A stretch of DNA of 25,260 nt from a virus: the IMG/VR virus record IMGVR_UViG_3300032238_001497, positions 1-25,260 of that record, one strand, 5' to 3'. The translations under genes and the position numbers were made by a program. The stretch's first letter is position 1, and every line of letters starts with the position of its first letter. Positions 12,615-19,189 of the stretch are shown one piece after another. The notes beneath the pieces are model-generated. The model had not been told where the DNA came from. It did not search any database and saw only the letters and a list, made by a program, of their open reading frames with translations.

Positions 12615-13370
12615 TTAAGGGGAAAGTCTTGCTTTATGCAGTCTTTTCTCTTCATAATAATGGAAAACTTCAGGAACCCATTCTTTAATAATTGGAACCA
12701 TACCTTCACAAAGGGCCTGAATTTCAACTTGAGCATCGAGTTTTGCTCTTAGATCAAGAAAGTGAAGTGCTGCACGGAGAGAAAATGATACCACGAAATT
12801 CTGACGGATATTCTGCGGAAGATAATCCCTCAGATGTTCTTCAGCCATACCACGCTTCTCATACCCCTCTGCATACCGCTCAGATGCCGCTAGACAGAAC
12901 TTTAACTGCCTTTCATAGTCTTCCCTTGTCCATTCGTATTTGTGCCCCTTACGGTCCAAATACAGACCCTCTGGGCGAACGTAATAAACTTGCTCAGGTT
13001 TAAGTTCTCCCTTTGCAACTTTGAGAACACGGCGACCCGTATAACGTTGAGACTGAACATCGAACGATACACCAACGCGATGAGTCCGTGCTTGGACAAT
13101 TACATTATGAACAAATCCAACGCAGTCCATAGTAATCGCAGGATGCTCCAACGGACCCCAGTGTCCACGTTCATTTGCAAGTAACTGCTCAATAACCCAT
13201 TTACCACATTCTGCTTCCCTTGGTGGAAACTTAGTATGAATAGGTTCCTCAGAGTAATCATTTTTTCCTGCTTGGTAAATGAGTGTCTGTGGGAGTTGTG
13301 TCTGCCTAAGCATCACAACTTTCATTTCTTTATCTAGTTCTAAAAGATCTTTTGCTTTAATTGGTTTCAT
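12615..13370 (-). CDS. thyX: Flavin-dependent thymidylate synthase ThyX
   Basis: A 251-aa protein. It makes dTMP from dUMP using methylene-tetrahydrofolate, FAD and NADPH. The ThyX motif is at residues 95-110: RTHRVGVSFDVQSQRY, a slight variant of RHRxxSxNExSxRY with Thr after the first Arg. Further signatures are NERGHWGPLEHPAIT (flavin site region) and HFLDLRAKLDAQVEIQ near the end. It supplies thymidine for phage DNA in a host that may also use ThyX. The frame extends to a TTG at 13379, but ATG 13370 is preferred, 5 nt after the 55-aa gene. The gene is clearly richer in G+C (45% in a sampled 60-nt line) than most neighbours. Confidence 0.95.
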   Translation of the reverse strand: MKPIKAKDLLELDKEMKVVMLRQTQLPQTLIYQAGKNDYSEEPIHTKFPPREAECGKWVIEQLLANERGHWGPLEHPAITMDCVGFVHNVIVQARTHRVGVSFDVQSQRYTGRRVLKVAKGELKPEQVYYVRPEGLYLDRKGHKYEWTREDYERQLKFCLAASERYAEGYEKRGMAEEHLRDYLPQNIRQNFVVSFSLRAALHFLDLRAKLDAQVEIQALCEGMVPIIKEWVPEVFHYYEEKRLHKARLSP

Positions 13371-13375
13371 AATTT

Positions 13376-13543
13376 TCAATCAGGATATCCATCGTCATCT
13401 TCAAAAATTTCATCATAATCTTCAACATAAGGAGCAATTTCCTCATACTTATAAGAATCTGTATCTGAATAAATTTCAGACTTTAAACATTCTACCAAAG
13501 ATTCTAAATTTTTAACGATGAGTTTGAGTTTTTCTTTTTCCAT
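13376..13543 (-). CDS. Acidic 55-aa hypothetical protein upstream of thyX
   Basis: A short ORF: MEKEKLKLIVKNLESLVECL, then KSEIYSDTDSYKYEEIAPYV and an acidic tail (EDYDEIFEDDDGYPD). It has a helical N-terminus and a very acidic C-terminus. An AAGGAG lies 11 nt before the ATG, and a promoter (TTGACT-17-TAGAAT) ends just upstream. It is 5 nt from thyX, so it is likely the first gene of the thyX transcript. I recognise no family. Confidence 0.65.
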   Translation of the reverse strand: MEKEKLKLIVKNLESLVECLKSEIYSDTDSYKYEEIAPYVEDYDEIFEDDDGYPD

Positions 13544-13564
13544 AATTTTAGTTTCTCCTTCTTC

Positions 13565-13593
13565 ATTCTACACAAAAAAAGAGAGGCAGTCAA
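13565..13593 (-). promoter_or_regulatory. Promoter embedded in the speD terminator
   Basis: The minus-strand -35 TTGACT (13593-13588) forms most of the terminator loop. After a 17-nt spacer that includes the T run comes -10 TAGAAT (13570-13565). Transcription would begin near 13558, just before the AAGGAG of the 55-aa gene. It restarts transcription for thyX and beyond. Confidence 0.7.
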
Positions 13594-13600
13594 CCTCTCT
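13574..13600 (-). terminator. Intrinsic terminator after speD
   Basis: On the minus strand AGAGAGG, loop TTGACTG, CCTCTCT, then a T run. The stem begins within the last codons of speD, and the loop contains the speD stop codon. Confidence 0.85.
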
Positions 13601-13919
13601 CAATATAACTTAGAGTATGATCATTTGCATAAAGTTGGTGGATAATAATATCACATCCAATCTTGGGATTACAATCACCACAAGTATAAACATCAACTGC
13701 TGCTTTGCCTTCTTCAGGCCAAGTATGAATGCTTATATGACTCTCAGAAAGTAAACAAATTACAGTAACTCCTTGAGGATCAAATTTTTTTGAAATTGTT
13801 TGAACTACAGTAGCACCACTAGCAACTGCTGCGTTTTCTAAAAGTTCTATAAGATAATGTTCATCGTCTAAAAGTACGAATGAACATCCATATAAGTTAA
13901 GTAGATAATGCTTTCCCAT
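13590..13919 (-). CDS. speD: S-adenosylmethionine decarboxylase proenzyme SpeD
   Basis: A 109-aa protein. It decarboxylates S-adenosylmethionine to give the aminopropyl donor for spermidine. The self-cleavage site is intact: LLSESHISIHTWPE with S60 as the future pyruvoyl residue, H65 as the processing His and C80 in DVYTCGD. These equal S63, H68 and C83 of the bacterial class, with a constant offset of 3. The length is normal for the short bacterial/archaeal type. No spermidine synthase is in the window, so it probably feeds the host pathway. A TTG start exists at 13928, but ATG 13919 gives the usual MGKHYLLNLYGC. It overlaps the upstream 66-aa gene by 23 nt. Confidence 0.94.
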   Translation of the reverse strand: MGKHYLLNLYGCSFVLLDDEHYLIELLENAAVASGATVVQTISKKFDPQGVTVICLLSESHISIHTWPEEGKAAVDVYTCGDCNPKIGCDIIIHQLYANDHTLSYIERG

Positions 13920-14097
13920 CTTCTCCAAGTTCTTTTAATAAATTTGTGACGATCTTTTCGGATCCATCCATCATTTTTACAGCGAACAAAGGAGACTTCA
14001 TATATTTTTTAATTTTTTTATAGTCTTTTAAAATCTTCTTTACTTCGTCTTTATTGATTTCGACTTCAATCTTTTCTTCGCTAAATCCTTCACTCAT
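13897..14097 (-). CDS. Hypothetical 66-aa charged protein
   Basis: A 66-aa protein, MSEGFSEEKIEVEINKDEVK followed by KILKDYKKIKKYMKSPLFAV and KIVTNLLKELGEDGKALST. It is highly charged, probably helical with a short beta segment, and has no membrane part. It begins inside the stop codon of the upstream gene (ATGA overlap) and overlaps speD by 23 nt, so translation is coupled on both sides. I recognise no family. Confidence 0.65.
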   Translation of the reverse strand: MSEGFSEEKIEVEINKDEVKKILKDYKKIKKYMKSPLFAVKMMDGSEKIVTNLLKELGEDGKALST

Positions 14098-14396
14098 CTT
14101 TTTTTCCTTTCAGGTTTTTTATATCCCCAGAGTTTTGGGCTAGTTTTACCATATCCCCAAATAATATTTTTAATTACTCCAGGTCCAAATTTATCATAAT
14201 AAAGATCAAAAATTCTTACTCTTGATCCCCTACAAATATCCGTATAAACTTTTCCAGAAATTTCATAAATTACCTGATAAGCATCATTTGGAAGAGACTG
14301 GTCTTTAATTTGCTCTTCATTTGCTTTCTCATGAATCAATTCGCATCCATATTGAGAAGGAATATCTTTCTTTTCATCTGCTGTCCATTGATTCAT
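14094..14396 (-). CDS. Conserved hypothetical 100-aa protein
   Basis: A 100-aa protein starting MNQWTADEKKDIPSQYGCEL, with DAYQVIYEISGKVYTDICRG, SRVRIFDLYYDKFGPGVIKN and IIWGYGKTSPKLWGYKKPER. The end is very basic (PERKKR). The frame opens at TTG 14435 inside the upstream gene, but ATG 14396 has GGAGAAG 4 nt before it. The C-terminal WGYGKTSPKLWG block looks conserved in cyanophages by memory. Function unknown; the basic end suggests nucleic-acid or polymerase contact, which is only a guess. Confidence 0.72.
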   Translation of the reverse strand: MNQWTADEKKDIPSQYGCELIHEKANEEQIKDQSLPNDAYQVIYEISGKVYTDICRGSRVRIFDLYYDKFGPGVIKNIIWGYGKTSPKLWGYKKPERKKR

Positions 14397-14416
14397 GGTC
14401 TTCTCCACAGTAGTAT

Positions 14417-15031
14417 TCAAGATCTCCCTCCCCAAGAGATATCGGGATAGGATTCTTTTACATTTTCAATGGTGATTTTATATTTATCCGAAAGTTTTTT
14501 ATCCTTTATCAGACAAACAATTTCAGCTTCCTTAGGATGAAGTCCTTGAAGAAGATTAATAAACATCATTTCTCTACGAATAGTAGACAAAGTATCATTA
14601 CCACCTTTTACATAATGATAAAGATTTTGATACTCTCTTCTCAAAGATGTTTTACCTCTACCATCCAAATCTTGTCCAGTAGCAGACTCTCCACCCATTG
14701 CTTCTTTGGAAAGATTATCAGATAAATTTCCAGAGTAAACATTTTGATCTTTCAGATCTCCATAAGGAACTTCTCCAGTAGGAAGTAATGAAATTACTGA
14801 AGGATCAAAATTCCAAACAAAAATTACTTTCAAAGAATCATGTTCATATTTTTTTAGAACTTCAACCTTTTTTGCATCAGATTTTTGTTTTGAAACAAGT
14901 TCAAGAATTTCAAATACAAATGGGTTTGATGGAAGATCTAAAATTGGTTCTTCAATTACTTTTGGTTTTGACGAAGAGGTTTTAGTAGTTCTATTCGTCG
15001 TCGTCTTCTTCGTTGTCGTCGTCATAGTCAT
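14417..15031 (-). CDS. DUF6433-like conserved phage protein
   Basis: A 204-aa protein. After a low-complexity Thr/Lys N-terminus (residues 1-30) comes FVFEILELVSKQKSDAKKVE, LKVIFVWNFDPSVISLLPTG, LRREYQNLYHYVKG and EMMFINLLQGLHPKEAEIVC, ending ESYPDISWGGRS. The order (helical start, F-DP-I, short loop, REY.N.Y.Y, then LL..LHP.EA..I) matches what I recall of DUF6433 in T4-like phages; a profile search would settle it. ATGs lie at 15031 and 15025; the first is used here. Its 5' end overlaps the upstream gene by 41 nt within an (ACG)-rich tract. Confidence 0.7.
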   Translation of the reverse strand: MTMTTTTKKTTTNRTTKTSSSKPKVIEEPILDLPSNPFVFEILELVSKQKSDAKKVEVLKKYEHDSLKVIFVWNFDPSVISLLPTGEVPYGDLKDQNVYSGNLSDNLSKEAMGGESATGQDLDGRGKTSLRREYQNLYHYVKGGNDTLSTIRREMMFINLLQGLHPKEAEIVCLIKDKKLSDKYKITIENVKESYPDISWGGRS

Positions 15032-15218
15032 TTTCAAATCGTACTGCTAATATTTCGTCTGGTAATACATTACCATGTTGATCAAACATTTCTGGGTGCA
15101 TAGAAGGGAAATAATTTCTTTCATAGAAATGTTGCTTTGCTATCCACCCTAACATACATCCAACAATTAAAAACATTATTGAAACTAATGTTGTGATGGT
15201 CAATGTTACTGCTAACAT
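14991..15218 (-). CDS. Small membrane-anchored protein with acidic tail
   Basis: A 75-aa protein with one membrane helix at about residues 3-27 (AVTLTITTLVSIMFLIVGCM), then a cytoplasmic-type segment RNYFPSMHPEMFDQHGNVLP and DEILAVRFEND, and an Asp/Glu-rich end (DYDDDNEEDDDE). GGGAG lies 8 nt before the ATG. Similar single-helix proteins with a HPE..D..G pattern occur in T4-like cyanophages, but I know no function. Its acidic tail is encoded by the same bases that encode the Thr-rich start of the next gene. Confidence 0.72.
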   Translation of the reverse strand: MLAVTLTITTLVSIMFLIVGCMLGWIAKQHFYERNYFPSMHPEMFDQHGNVLPDEILAVRFENDYDDDNEEDDDE

Positions 15219-15219
15219 T

Positions 15220-15441
15220 TTACTTCTCCCGAGAGTTATTTTTCCTTAAGTCCAAAGAAATTTCAAAATATAAATCAATCTCTCGATAGAAGAGAGAAAA
15301 AATCTTACCAAACCTAATTTGAAAGAACTTTGGTTTGTCTGGTTTTCTCCTCCTATTTTTTAATAATAACTCAAATCCTCGATTAATATGAGGATCTCTA
15401 TTATTTAGATCCCTTCTTTCTCCTTCCTGGTCTCTTGTCAT
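15220..15441 (-). CDS. Hypothetical 73-aa basic protein
   Basis: Starting from ATG 15441 it gives MTRDQEGERRDLNNRDPHIN, then RGFELLLKNRRRKPDKPKFF and QIRFGKIFSLFYREIDLYFE. It is basic, with an aromatic beta-like C-terminal half. It overlaps the upstream 119-aa gene by 41 nt and ends 1 nt before the next ATG, so it may be translated by coupling. Other in-frame starts exist at 15459 (ATG) and 15465 (TTG). No family is recognised, and the overlap lowers confidence that the N-terminus is right. Confidence 0.5.
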   Translation of the reverse strand: MTRDQEGERRDLNNRDPHINRGFELLLKNRRRKPDKPKFFQIRFGKIFSLFYREIDLYFEISLDLRKNNSREK

Positions 15442-15760
15442 GATTATACTTCCATGCATCTTCAAGAATACCGTAAAGGTAATTCCTTATTTTTCTTGCC
15501 TGTGGTTTTGGAATATGTCCATATGCTTCACGAAGTTGCTTATGATCGTTATCAGAACCACCTTCTAGATAAGCATCAAGGTCCATTACGAGATTATTGA
15601 TATTTGAAGCTGTTGCGCTTTCAATAAATTGTTCTACTTCTAATCTTTTAGTGCCTCTGATTTTCAAATAATCATAAAATTTAAGAACAAAATGACCATC
15701 AAAAGCAAGATCTATTGCTCTTTCTACATCAAAATAAACTTCGTTAAATGTTGTTTCCAT
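15401..15760 (-). CDS. Conserved hypothetical 119-aa protein
   Basis: A soluble, mostly helical 119-aa protein: METTFNEVYFDVERAIDLAF, then GHFVLKFYDYLKIRGTKRLE, LVMDLDAYLEGGSDNDHKQL and REAYGHIPKPQARKIRNYLY, with a basic end (KRPGRRKKGSK). I do not recognise a family. The ATG overlaps the glutaredoxin stop (TAATG), so it is the second gene of that transcript. Confidence 0.72.
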   Translation of the reverse strand: METTFNEVYFDVERAIDLAFDGHFVLKFYDYLKIRGTKRLEVEQFIESATASNINNLVMDLDAYLEGGSDNDHKQLREAYGHIPKPQARKIRNYLYGILEDAWKYNHDKRPGRRKKGSK

Positions 15761-15999
15761 TAAACCAATTTTTGCTCCTTTAGATACTTAACAGTTTCTG
15801 TACAACCACCAAGATGTTCTTGATCATTTAAGAGAACTTGTGGAAATGTTGAACCCTCACCAAACTCAGCATAAAACTGATCCCTATTAAAGTGTTCTCC
15901 CAATTTGTAGATAACATGTTCAAGGTTTGTTAATTGTAGCACCTGTTCAATTTTACTGCAATAGGGGCAGCCACTTTTCGAATAAACAGTGAATTTCAT
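15760..15999 (-). CDS. nrdC: Glutaredoxin
   Basis: A 79-aa protein with the redox motif C11-P-Y-C14 (SKSGCPYCSKIEQ), a cis-Pro loop in STFPQVLLND and the C-terminal LGGCTETVKYL glutathione-site motif. It reduces disulphides and in T4 the analogous NrdC donates electrons to ribonucleotide reductase. An added Cys lies in the GGC motif. It is the first gene after a terminator-promoter element and heads the block running to speD. No clear Shine-Dalgarno is seen in the AT-rich leader. The symbol is by analogy with T4 NrdC. Confidence 0.9.
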   Translation of the reverse strand: MKFTVYSKSGCPYCSKIEQVLQLTNLEHVIYKLGEHFNRDQFYAEFGEGSTFPQVLLNDQEHLGGCTETVKYLKEQKLV

Positions 16000-16021
16000 A
16001 TGTTTTAAAATTGTATTTACA

Positions 16022-16029
16022 TATTTAGA
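16022..16029 (-). promoter_or_regulatory. Possible late promoter variant in the glutaredoxin leader
   Basis: The minus-strand octamer TCTAAATA is 22 nt before the glutaredoxin ATG, identical to the octamer before gp48. A second similar site, TGTAAATA, lies a few bases downstream. It may add late expression to the sigma70-type promoter. Weak. Confidence 0.3.
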
Positions 16030-16039
16030 GCATCATATA

Positions 16040-16068
16040 AGTATACAAAAAAAGGAGGAAAAAGTCAA
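16040..16068 (-). promoter_or_regulatory. Promoter embedded in the fibre-block terminator
   Basis: The minus-strand -35 TTGACT (16068-16063) is exactly the terminator loop. After a 17-nt spacer comes -10 TATACT (16045-16040). Transcription would begin near 16033 and serve glutaredoxin through speD. Confidence 0.7.
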
Positions 16069-16078
16069 TTTTCCTCCT
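16047..16078 (-). terminator. Intrinsic terminator after the 1029-aa virion protein
   Basis: On the minus strand AGGAGGAAAA, loop TTGACT, TTTTCCTCCT (a perfect 10-bp stem), then a T run. It lies 22 nt after the stop of the virion gene. Confidence 0.9.
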
Positions 16079-16099
16079 CAAAATTTATTTTGATTAAAA

Positions 16100-19000
16100 T
16101 TATGCCTGCGCTTCAGTCCAAGCAATACGACCAAGACATGTAGCAATACCAGCACCAACGTTTGTTACTATGATTGTAAGAGTATCTGGACCATCTGGAT
16201 AGATACCACTATTTGCAAATGTTGTGCCTCCGCCAATAACACAGTTACCAAGATCTCTAACTTTATCAAGTTCAACACTATTCGAACCCGCTCCAACGAA
16301 GAATCCAGCAGTAGTTTCTCCACCAAAAACTGAAACTGAAGTTCCTGCTCCAGGGTTTGCACCATAGTCTGCGATTTGAGCAAGACTAGAGTTAGCTATA
16401 TTTGCGACGTTTCCTACAGCATTTGTCCAAGGAGTTGCTGATGAAGGAACACCATTTAGAATCGCTTTAACAAGAAGGTTTGCGTTCGCACTAGAACCAC
16501 CATTAACTGTAATATCAAGAGTACGGAGAACTAATTGCATTCTATTAACCAAATCTCTTTGCCCAAAGTTTGCAGCAATTCCATTATCAACAGAAGGAGC
16601 AACGCGAATTGAGAATAATGCTCTAGTAGCACCACCAGTAACAGGTAAACCAACAGTTTGTCCATAAGTAAAGACCAATGATTTATCATCATCAAATCTT
16701 CCATCCATAATTGCGGATGTTCCCCAGTGAGAAATTGCAGGGGCAAAGGTTGGGTAAGCAAGTTCAACAATTGTTGGTCCAGTTGCAGAATATGAGAATG
16801 TTTGGGGAGCACCAGAAAGACCCATTGGAGTAAACGTCATTCCAATTCCAGAAATAGATGCTAAAGCACCTTGAGAAAGTCTTACGTTTCCTACTCCAAT
16901 CGAAGTGATAAAAGCATTCTCTGGAAGTGCATGACTAAATGCTCTTTGCCCAACTTGAAGATTAGTTGTTGCAGCGACAGCAACAAGATTATCAGATGTA
17001 GTTGTACTCGCAGCAATTCCTGCAGGTTCTCCTGCTTTTTCTCTGATTACTCCAGTCAAACAAGTTGTACCAACACCAGTATAATTAACAAATTCAAAAG
17101 TTGTATTTCCAATTGATACTGTGCCTGCTGGCGGAAATCCTCCAGTGCTTGCAATTCCAATAAAAGTATCTCCCGGATTTATTTGTTGTGTTGTAATAGT
17201 GGATGGGGGTTTTGTTGTTGATTCATACCTTGCAGGTAAGTTACCCGATCTCATATAAGCTTCACTGTTAACATTGTTGTTAACAAGTTTATGAACATAG
17301 AAAACATTACCATCTGGTCCACGGAATCCCCAACGAATAAATCCTGCACCATACCAAGAATAGTCAATGTAGAACATCTGCATCTTGGATAGATCAAGAT
17401 TATATCCAGAAGGACCTGTACCATCGCACTTATCAAGGTTCCAAGATGCTTGTGGCATTCTTGTATCTATTGTTTTAGAAATTGTTACATAATCTGATGA
17501 TGCTCCTCGATAAGAAGGAGAAATTACCATTGAAGTATCACTATCAATATCAATTACACGATAAGAAACTCCACGAATTACAACATAATCACCAACTACC
17601 AATTGCCTTCCAAAAGAAGTTGGAAATGCTGCATTGGTTTGAGTAACTGTATTTTGTCCTGCTGTTACACTTACTTTACCACCAATTTGATATGTTGAAT
17701 TGCGACGAACTGCATATAAAGTTTGCCCATCAAATTCAAAGAATAACCCATTTTGTCCATCAAAAATACCAAGACGATTTACACAACCATACCATTTTGT
17801 AACTGCAACAGTATAAGTTCCAGATGCTGTAGTTGAAGATGGAGTTGTAAGTGGTTGATAAGTGAAAGTATTATATCCAGTTACAGAAAAAATACTAAAA
17901 GTTCCATTATATGCAGATTCGTTTGCACCAACAACTGTAATTTGAGATCCTGGAACTACATATAAAACGCCATGAGGTTCTTTAGTTTGAACAGTAACCA
18001 ATCCACTACCACTATCATATGCTAGTTTATCCACTTGGAAGTTTGGTTTCATGAGAGTACCAGAACTCATCTGAATACCCTTACCTGATTGATATCGGAA
18101 ATATCTTCTGGTTTGACGAATTGCCTGTTCATAGTTAGAAGATGCTCCACTACCAAAAAGAACACCTCCATCATAAGGTCTATGTAAGAAATATGCATTA
18201 GATCTTACAAATAGTGAAGAAGATGCTGTGTATGCAGCTCCAGGATTACCCGTTCCGGCGGTGTATGCTACAGGAACTGGGAATGGAGAATAGAATGTAA
18301 ATCTATTCTGATCTAATACTCTATGAATCACATAAGATCCATTTAAATTTTGATCGGTACGAGAGTTAACTCCAACAACAGCAATTGAATTTCCAAGAGA
18401 AAGTCCATGAGGAACAGTCGTTGTTACTGTTACAGCAAATCCAGTAGTATCACTTCTTCCAGTAAACTTAGGAGGTCCTCCAATTGCTGCACCAGTAAAC
18501 GTAGTACCACTGTAAATACCCGTTTTATTTGGATCAAAAATATTAGTAATTCCTGTAGTATTAATCGCTTTTGCACTATATGTTACAACCCCTGCGGCAA
18601 CATTAGCATCTTCAATGATGAAGTTTCCATTTGCAAATTGTAAAAAAGTATCTTGAACAGTAATTGCGGAACCAATACCAGGCAACGGTAATGTTGATGC
18701 AACGCTAACTTTTTTACTATTTGCAGACATTGTTACTGTTCCAATTCCACTCAAGGGAACTGATTGTGAATATGCAAATGGGCGATTATCTACTAATGCT
18801 ACATTTTCCCATTTAGAAACTTGTGTACCATATTCAAAGTCAGTATCAATCAGAGCCTGTGGAGTAGAAGTTCTAAATTTGTTAACTGGATCATAGAGAG
18901 ATGCAACTGGTTCAATTTGAGTAGCTGAAGTTTCCGTAAAAATTTGAAGTATATCACTAGAGCTCATTAATGAGCAATCATATTTTAAAGTAATAGTAGT

Positions 19001-19189
19001 TGCATTACTTACGGAATCATAACTAATAGAATTTGCAATCGCAGTAGTATCACTAAAATTATAAATTATCTTTCCTTTTGTAACGTTTGTAATGAGAAGT
19101 AACTCATTCAATGAAATATTAATTCCACTAACAACAACTTGATTTGCTGATGGGACAAAAGTATAACTAAAATTTAATTTTTTTGCCAT
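16100..19189 (-). CDS. Large virion structural protein, probable tail or fibre component (1029 aa)
   Basis: The N-terminus MAKKLNFSYTFVPSANQVVV and residues 100-145 (LYDPVNKFRTSTPQALIDTD, then FEYGTQVSKWENVALVDNRP) belong to a large structural protein common in T4-like cyanophages. The middle carries Ig- or beta-sandwich-like repeats of the type TTTVPHGLSLGNSIAVVGVN and VQTKEPHGVLYVVPGSQITV, followed by YNGTFSIFSV-like closings. Residues 595-650 hold a conserved SWYGAGFIRWGFRGPDGNVF block. It has no membrane segments. It is probably surface-exposed on the tail or baseplate. A late octamer CATAAATA lies 40 nt upstream and a strong terminator follows. The exact virion location cannot be told from sequence. 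Confidence 0.8.
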   Translation of the reverse strand: MAKKLNFSYTFVPSANQVVVSGINISLNELLLITNVTKGKIIYNFSDTTAIANSISYDSVSNATTITLKYDCSLMSSSDILQIFTETSATQIEPVASLYDPVNKFRTSTPQALIDTDFEYGTQVSKWENVALVDNRPFAYSQSVPLSGIGTVTMSANSKKVSVASTLPLPGIGSAITVQDTFLQFANGNFIIEDANVAAGVVTYSAKAINTTGITNIFDPNKTGIYSGTTFTGAAIGGPPKFTGRSDTTGFAVTVTTTVPHGLSLGNSIAVVGVNSRTDQNLNGSYVIHRVLDQNRFTFYSPFPVPVAYTAGTGNPGAAYTASSSLFVRSNAYFLHRPYDGGVLFGSGASSNYEQAIRQTRRYFRYQSGKGIQMSSGTLMKPNFQVDKLAYDSGSGLVTVQTKEPHGVLYVVPGSQITVVGANESAYNGTFSIFSVTGYNTFTYQPLTTPSSTTASGTYTVAVTKWYGCVNRLGIFDGQNGLFFEFDGQTLYAVRRNSTYQIGGKVSVTAGQNTVTQTNAAFPTSFGRQLVVGDYVVIRGVSYRVIDIDSDTSMVISPSYRGASSDYVTISKTIDTRMPQASWNLDKCDGTGPSGYNLDLSKMQMFYIDYSWYGAGFIRWGFRGPDGNVFYVHKLVNNNVNSEAYMRSGNLPARYESTTKPPSTITTQQINPGDTFIGIASTGGFPPAGTVSIGNTTFEFVNYTGVGTTCLTGVIREKAGEPAGIAASTTTSDNLVAVAATTNLQVGQRAFSHALPENAFITSIGVGNVRLSQGALASISGIGMTFTPMGLSGAPQTFSYSATGPTIVELAYPTFAPAISHWGTSAIMDGRFDDDKSLVFTYGQTVGLPVTGGATRALFSIRVAPSVDNGIAANFGQRDLVNRMQLVLRTLDITVNGGSSANANLLVKAILNGVPSSATPWTNAVGNVANIANSSLAQIADYGANPGAGTSVSVFGGETTAGFFVGAGSNSVELDKVRDLGNCVIGGGTTFANSGIYPDGPDTLTIIVTNVGAGIATCLGRIAWTEAQA

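Follow-up and report, generated by a model that had tools for sequence, protein, structure and literature searches.

Two putative boundary elements in the window

The window analysed here, the whole 25,260-nt stretch of IMG/VR virus record IMGVR_UViG_3300032238_001497, carries genes for gp32, PhoH, ThyX, SpeD and glutaredoxin, and at the DNA level it best matches phages of Synechococcus and Prochlorococcus; judged from its sequence, it represents part of a T4-like cyanophage genome. A virion structural gene and the glutaredoxin gene nrdC flank a minus-strand site at which a predicted terminator hairpin and a set of promoter boxes occupy the same bases:

16100..19189 (-), virion structural gene (PHROG 5838), whose transcript is presumably ended by the hairpin
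16052..16079 (-), terminator hairpin with 10 Watson-Crick pairs, a closing G-U and loop TTGACT (pattern scan, RNA folding)
16079-16069, 16068-16063 and 16062-16052 (-), 5' arm, loop TTGACT and 3' arm of the hairpin (sequence)
16063..16068 (-), -35 box TTGACT, identical with the hairpin loop (pattern scan)
16047..16053 (-), terminator T-run within the promoter spacer, its first two T's also closing the stem (sequence)
16040..16045 (-), -10 box TATACT, 17 bp from the -35 box (pattern scan)
16022..16028 (-), CTAAATA, late-promoter-like motif just downstream of the element (sequence)
15760..15999 (-), glutaredoxin (nrdC), first gene past the element (Pfam PF00462)

Read along the minus strand, the element consists of GAGGAGGAAAA-TTGACT-TTTTCCTCCTT, then T's, a G and TATACT. 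It has the features of an intrinsic terminator, namely a stable GC-containing stem, a short loop and a T-tract directly after; RNA folding gives a minimum free energy of -14.9 kcal/mol (z = -4.2), and between 8000 and 25260 the pattern scan lists 22 terminator-like sites, of which it is the second, after one with a weaker T-run. It also has those of a sigma70 promoter (a TTGACA-like -35 box, a spacing within 16-18 bp and a TATAAT-like -10 box), with a 10/12 match to consensus at spacer 17 in the pattern scan, and transcription would be expected to start at about 16033. The first-pass annotation had described a TTGACT loop followed at 17 bp by TATACT, which we confirm on the minus strand (10 Watson-Crick pairs plus the G-U), and had proposed that one set of bases serves both the terminator and the promoter after it, for which the boxes, stem and spacing at 16079-16040 provide support. 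Its naming of the downstream gene as glutaredoxin is borne out by PF00462; its upstream “fibre” gene matches a virion structural family (PHROG 5838), which makes a fibre plausible, but PHROGs does not label this family as fibre.

The CTAAATA at 16028-16022, which we take to be late-promoter-like, also follows the nrdC composite in another locus (L335, about 12730-12736), and its position behind the nrdC composite suggests that nrdC may have both an early and a putative late start. Strong minus-strand hairpins with weak T-runs also lie at 8478-8448 (12 pairs) and 11336-11314 (10 pairs).

At the junction of speD and the thyX block lies a second minus-strand composite, 13601-13565, which the first pass missed:

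13590..13928 (-), speD, S-adenosylmethionine decarboxylase, upstream of the second copy (Pfam PF02675)
13579..13601 (-), hairpin GAGAGAGG-TTGACT-GCCTCTCT and the start of the T-run, which runs over 13580-13574 (pattern scan, RNA folding)
13588..13593 (-), -35 box TTGACT, enclosing the speD TGA stop at 13592-13590
13565..13570 (-), -10 box TAGAAT, 17 bp from the -35 box (sequence)
13376..13543 (-), small leader ORF immediately after the second copy (PHROG 878)
12615..13379 (-), thyX, thymidylate synthase, in the block past the second copy (Pfam PF02511)

The window thus holds two composites with 17-bp spacing, whereas 200 dinucleotide-shuffled versions of its full length contain none; together with the pattern-scan controls given below, this rules out a chance origin of the composite. 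A search of Rfam with window positions 13300-16400 returned two matches far below their gathering scores, neither of them on the elements.

Recurrence and genomic placement

IMG/VR viral contigs and bacterial genomes were scanned for the pattern TTGACW-N-T7-N-TANANT, and a stem was sought around the -35 hexamer. The pattern-scan figures derive from five scans in which all listed loci except L015 were used, their proportions refer to the matches listed, and all counts in this study cover related phages rather than independent events. Among the matches listed, a strong stem surrounded the -35 box in 116/222 distinct viral matches (55/108 with TTGACT and 61/114 with TTGACA), as against 5/104 with a reversed hexamer, 1/106 with an A-tract and 6/118 in bacterial genomes. 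Spacing was exactly 17 bp in 107/116 of the listed cases with a hairpin, compared with 61/106 of those without. This is the scan of related phage DNA for a stem enclosing TTGAC[AT], a T-run and a -10 box that the first-pass annotation had proposed, and relative to the controls the element recurs. That annotation had also held that its reading would fail if loop sequences proved random among terminators. Eighty glutaredoxin loci, taken from IMG/VR regardless of whether the element was present, contain 147 terminators at the thresholds of our custom finder, on which all terminator counts below likewise depend (those of the nrdC loci, the named genomes and the pooled set); TTGAC forms the loop in 54, and every one of these 54 lies on the nrdC strand and is followed by TANNNT exactly 17 bp on, so that the refuting condition of random loops does not hold. 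The element therefore looks like a recurring family in viruses of aquatic cyanobacteria, not a one-off.

To characterise the carriers, their ORFs were compared with those of eight Kyanoviridae genomes. Among the matches listed, 116/125 hairpin loci have two or more Kyanoviridae-like ORFs, compared with 34/114 pattern loci lacking a hairpin and 45/240 control loci, and from this gene content the hairpin loci mostly look like T4-like cyanophages (Kyanoviridae). The finder reported two TTGAC-loop terminators in S-SM2, one in P-SSM4, two in Bellamy (one without a -10 box), two in S-SRM01 (counted without its first 20 kb and last 1.8 kb), one in S-B43 and two in contig G020, and none in Syn9, S-CRM01, T4 or the searched 219 kb of P-SSM2. 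The strict form is therefore rare, at 0-2 per named or long genome by the finder, which counts against the explanation that we favour below. The pattern scan found no match in HTVC008M, P-SSP7, Ma-LMM01 or P-SS2.

Two wider origins were considered and rejected. A host-derived feature is ruled out by 98 genomes of the cyanobacterial phylum, whose 19 pattern matches include none with a strong GC-containing stem, and a general T4 trait by the 12 terminators that the finder reports in T4, among which there is neither a TTGAC loop nor an in-register -10 box. Of two pattern matches in KVP40, one was inspected: in this Vibrio phage terminator near 150227 (L254, about 924-957), TTGACA sits in the stem rather than the loop, with TATGCT past the T-tract. 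The -35/T-tract/-10 pattern occurs seventeen times in the 236-kb contig G022, whose locus L147 has no Kyanoviridae-like ORF; these sites may be a series of promoters in a different type of phage.

Conservation is strongest at the speD/thyX boundary, where speD adjoins the small leader ORF of the thyX block; in most loci this site lies 2.2-3.1 kb downstream of nrdC. Downstream sequence was available in 64 of the 80 loci (16 lack it), 12 of these 64 having no recognisable leader ORF. Among the 52 evaluable loci, 46 carry the composite, six a promoter without a strong hairpin and none lacks both, so that the promoter is kept at this orthologous site in 52/52 relatives, while 22 different 9-nt sequences precede TTGAC there. 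The element at the nrdC position is sporadic, being found in the window, in P-SSM4, where it stands before nrdC, and in a single IMG/VR locus (L078) of the 74 that could be counted, the other six of the 80 beginning too close to a contig end. One copy in S-SM2 stands before hli03.

A longer form lies between hsp20 and the DNA polymerase (gp43) block, also in S-SM2 and Bellamy. Folding gives it an outer stem that varies, an apex CTGGCAAAATCCAG that is conserved, a TTGAC that lies partly at the end of the inner stem and partly in a bulge, and then a T-tract and a -10 box; the finder takes short loops only, and the long form was found by folding. In the 75 of 80 hsp20 loci that were long enough (five were too short), this form is present in 35, a TGTATCA-N3-TGATACA module in 22 and neither in 18. 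An inner repeat, ACTGG-N6-CCAGT, is conserved at the site. The apex occurs in hsp20 loci L714-L793 (for example L714, 4440-4560), and it is also a possible protein site beside the -35 box. The TGTATCA-N3-TGATACA sequence lies just upstream of a TATAAT-like box past hsp20 (for example in L727, L729 and L780) and resembles an operator, as an alternative module. The long form in L714 has no match in Rfam to a curated RNA family, attenuator or riboswitch.

Selection on the stem and the choice of loop

Exchanging 5' arms between elements reveals how closely the two arms of each stem belong together. In 500 shuffles of the non-near-identical elements among the matches listed, the number of strong hairpins fell from 26 to a mean of 2.8 (maximum 9) for TTGACT and from 39 to a mean of 3.5 (maximum 8) for TTGACA; by this comparison of sequences, the stems covary. 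In 119 elements, mismatches to Watson-Crick pairing comprise 22 G-T but only 4 A-C pairs (p = 0.0005, with detection treating G-T and A-C alike). Because only G-T can pair in the RNA of the promoter's sense strand, this preference indicates that pairing has been selected in that RNA. Covariation and the excess of G-T over A-C are the RNA-level signature of an intrinsic terminator, and the hairpin seems to be maintained for its form in the RNA of a polymerase coming from upstream; a terminator accounts for this better than an operator or cruciform in DNA would. There are 100 distinct 5' arms among the 119 elements, and the conserved palindrome of a DNA operator was not found; the exception to these variable arms is the conserved apex of the long form.

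These results bear most directly on the reading that the element is only a promoter, with a DNA inverted repeat at its -35 box that acts as a repressor or activator operator or as a cruciform. Such a reading would account for a palindrome centred on the -35 box, for the conservation of ACTGG-N6-CCAGT at the hsp20-gp43 site and for the TGTATCA-N3-TGATACA that some relatives carry there. The diversity of the arms and the 22-to-4 bias disfavour a DNA palindrome, however, as does the association of the hairpin with a T-tract rather than an A-tract (55/108 against 1/106 among the matches listed), and we consider a promoter without a terminator very unlikely.

The promoter side of the element is best seen against other terminators. 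We pooled 297 sequence-distinct terminators from nrdC loci, hsp20 loci and Kyanoviridae genomes. An in-register -10 box follows 45/52 TTGAC loops, 7/54 UUCG or GNRA loops and 39/191 other loops, while a late-like TAAATA motif follows 3/52, 22/54 and 49/191 of the same classes, respectively. The -10 box is of the extended type in 4/45 TTGAC fusions as opposed to 25/46 fusions with other loops (p = 3e-6, a value that overstates independence since pooled sets hold related phages). Terminators and the next promoters thus seem often to be fused in T4-like cyanophages, and the relation of loop class to -10 type suggests that a -35 box is placed in the loop where the promoter has nothing else to assist it. 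Terminators whose loops lack TTGAC and which run into extended -10 promoters (TGNTATAAT-like) are found in S-CRM01 (L329-L331), P-SSM4 (L268) and P-SSM2 (L346-L347).

That the element is only a terminator, with TTGAC a stable or inherited loop and the -10 box a chance word, would suit the recurrence of stems with this loop and the A/T-rich flanks in which TATAAT-like words are common (60 promoter-like sites in the window scan, 70 in shuffles), but is hardly credible given the 17-bp spacing of all 54 TTGAC loops among the nrdC loci, the scarcity of an in-register -10 box in other loop classes, and the speD/thyX boundary, where 6/52 loci keep the promoter without a strong hairpin and none lacks both.

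On the sequence evidence, the element is most probably a fused intrinsic terminator and sigma70-type promoter on the same strand, a module of about 40 bp at operon boundaries of T4-like cyanophages. The single sharing locus at the nrdC position, the six speD/thyX loci lacking a strong hairpin and the hsp20-gp43 relatives with another module or neither weigh against it. A further motif, ACCTTTGTC..GGTTGA, is conserved at the expected start site, in the first 20 nt past the -10 box (L090, L104, L009 and others), and might pair with the ribosome-binding region; TTTGT lies at most 14 nt from the -10 box in 37/125 composites compared with 22/719 plain promoters.

Possible action and relation to known systems

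T4-like phages use the host RNA polymerase. At the fused element, a host polymerase arriving from upstream would form the hairpin and halt at the T-tract, and a host holoenzyme would initiate the next block slightly further on. The position of the -35 box can be explained by geometry: a 3' arm of about 8 nt, a T-tract of 7-8 nt and 1-3 further nt add up to the usual 17-bp spacer, which leaves the loop as the only place for the -35 box if the -10 box abuts the T-tract. Terminators with other loops would then be those fused to promoters that need no -35 box there, being of the extended -10 or late TAAATA type. From their footprints, use of the terminator and use of the promoter should exclude each other in time, as an arriving polymerase would be stopped by one at the promoter before any hairpin could form, and a terminating polymerase would cover the promoter. 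A switch, whether by mutual exclusion or by polymerase hand-over, is plausible from this arrangement.

Within the fused reading, mere compaction is quite possible, though we stop short of favouring it: fused signals would save space with no regulatory coupling. The genomes are dense, and other terminators also run directly into extended -10 or late-like promoters; against this, the few copies per genome would save very little. Alternatively, polymerase could free its RNA at the T-tract, stay on the DNA, where it would already sit on the next promoter, and restart there. E. coli polymerase is described as usually staying on the DNA after intrinsic termination and restarting nearby in a distance-dependent manner (PMC6978380, PMC6978322), and terminator and promoter in the cyanophage element are about 15-20 bp apart. 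A promoter overlapping its terminator could, on the other hand, simply be occluded, and sigma would have to be retained or rebound, so we think such a relay unlikely. It is likewise doubtful that a family-specific relay physically couples successive blocks in T4-like cyanophages, with the loop kept as TTGAC for that purpose.

The fused element provides a compact and recognisable boundary signal of abundant aquatic phages, one that annotation software breaks up into a terminator and a promoter with no connection. It allows the limits of operons with replication, nucleotide and host-derived genes to be read from sequence, and it is a natural substrate for asking whether polymerases recycled at a terminator supply the promoter that follows. 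Cyanophage promoters and terminators are predicted separately in PMC3037559, and the literature searched yielded no description of a fused terminator-promoter family in cyanophages.

Terminators and sigma70 promoters are ordinary, and their overlap has precedents in Clostridium and in Kayvirus. With intrinsic terminators the cyanophage element shares the GC-containing stem, short loop, T7-8 tract and RNA-level selection, and it differs in having TTGAC as its fixed loop, at a distance of 17 bp from a -10 box. With sigma70 promoters (T4-type early promoters in phage annotation) it shares TTGAC[AT]-17-TANNNT, whereas its spacer is the 3' arm and T-tract of a terminator and its -35 box is a hairpin loop or, in the long form, the end of an inner stem and a bulge. 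Hairpin and promoter also coincide in the hairpin promoters of phage N4, where a DNA hairpin is read by the virion polymerase; in the cyanophage element it is RNA pairing that appears to be selected.

Post-termination recycling and reinitiation (PMC6978380, PMC6978322, PMC11347151), reported for E. coli polymerase in vitro, offers a possible coupling of a terminator to a nearby promoter, and PMC11347151 argues that recycling would be of little benefit to T7-like phages with their own polymerase. In the Clostridium sol operon, a promoter region likewise overlaps a terminator loop, according to PMC9402939; there the Assolrna promoter is antisense and belongs to a single locus, while the cyanophage element points in the sense direction and forms a recurring family. 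The Kayvirus early promoter p98, mapped by RNA-seq, similarly sits at a terminator, directly after t97 (PMC7698491); that pair is described as adjacent, whereas the terminator and promoter of the cyanophage element share bases.
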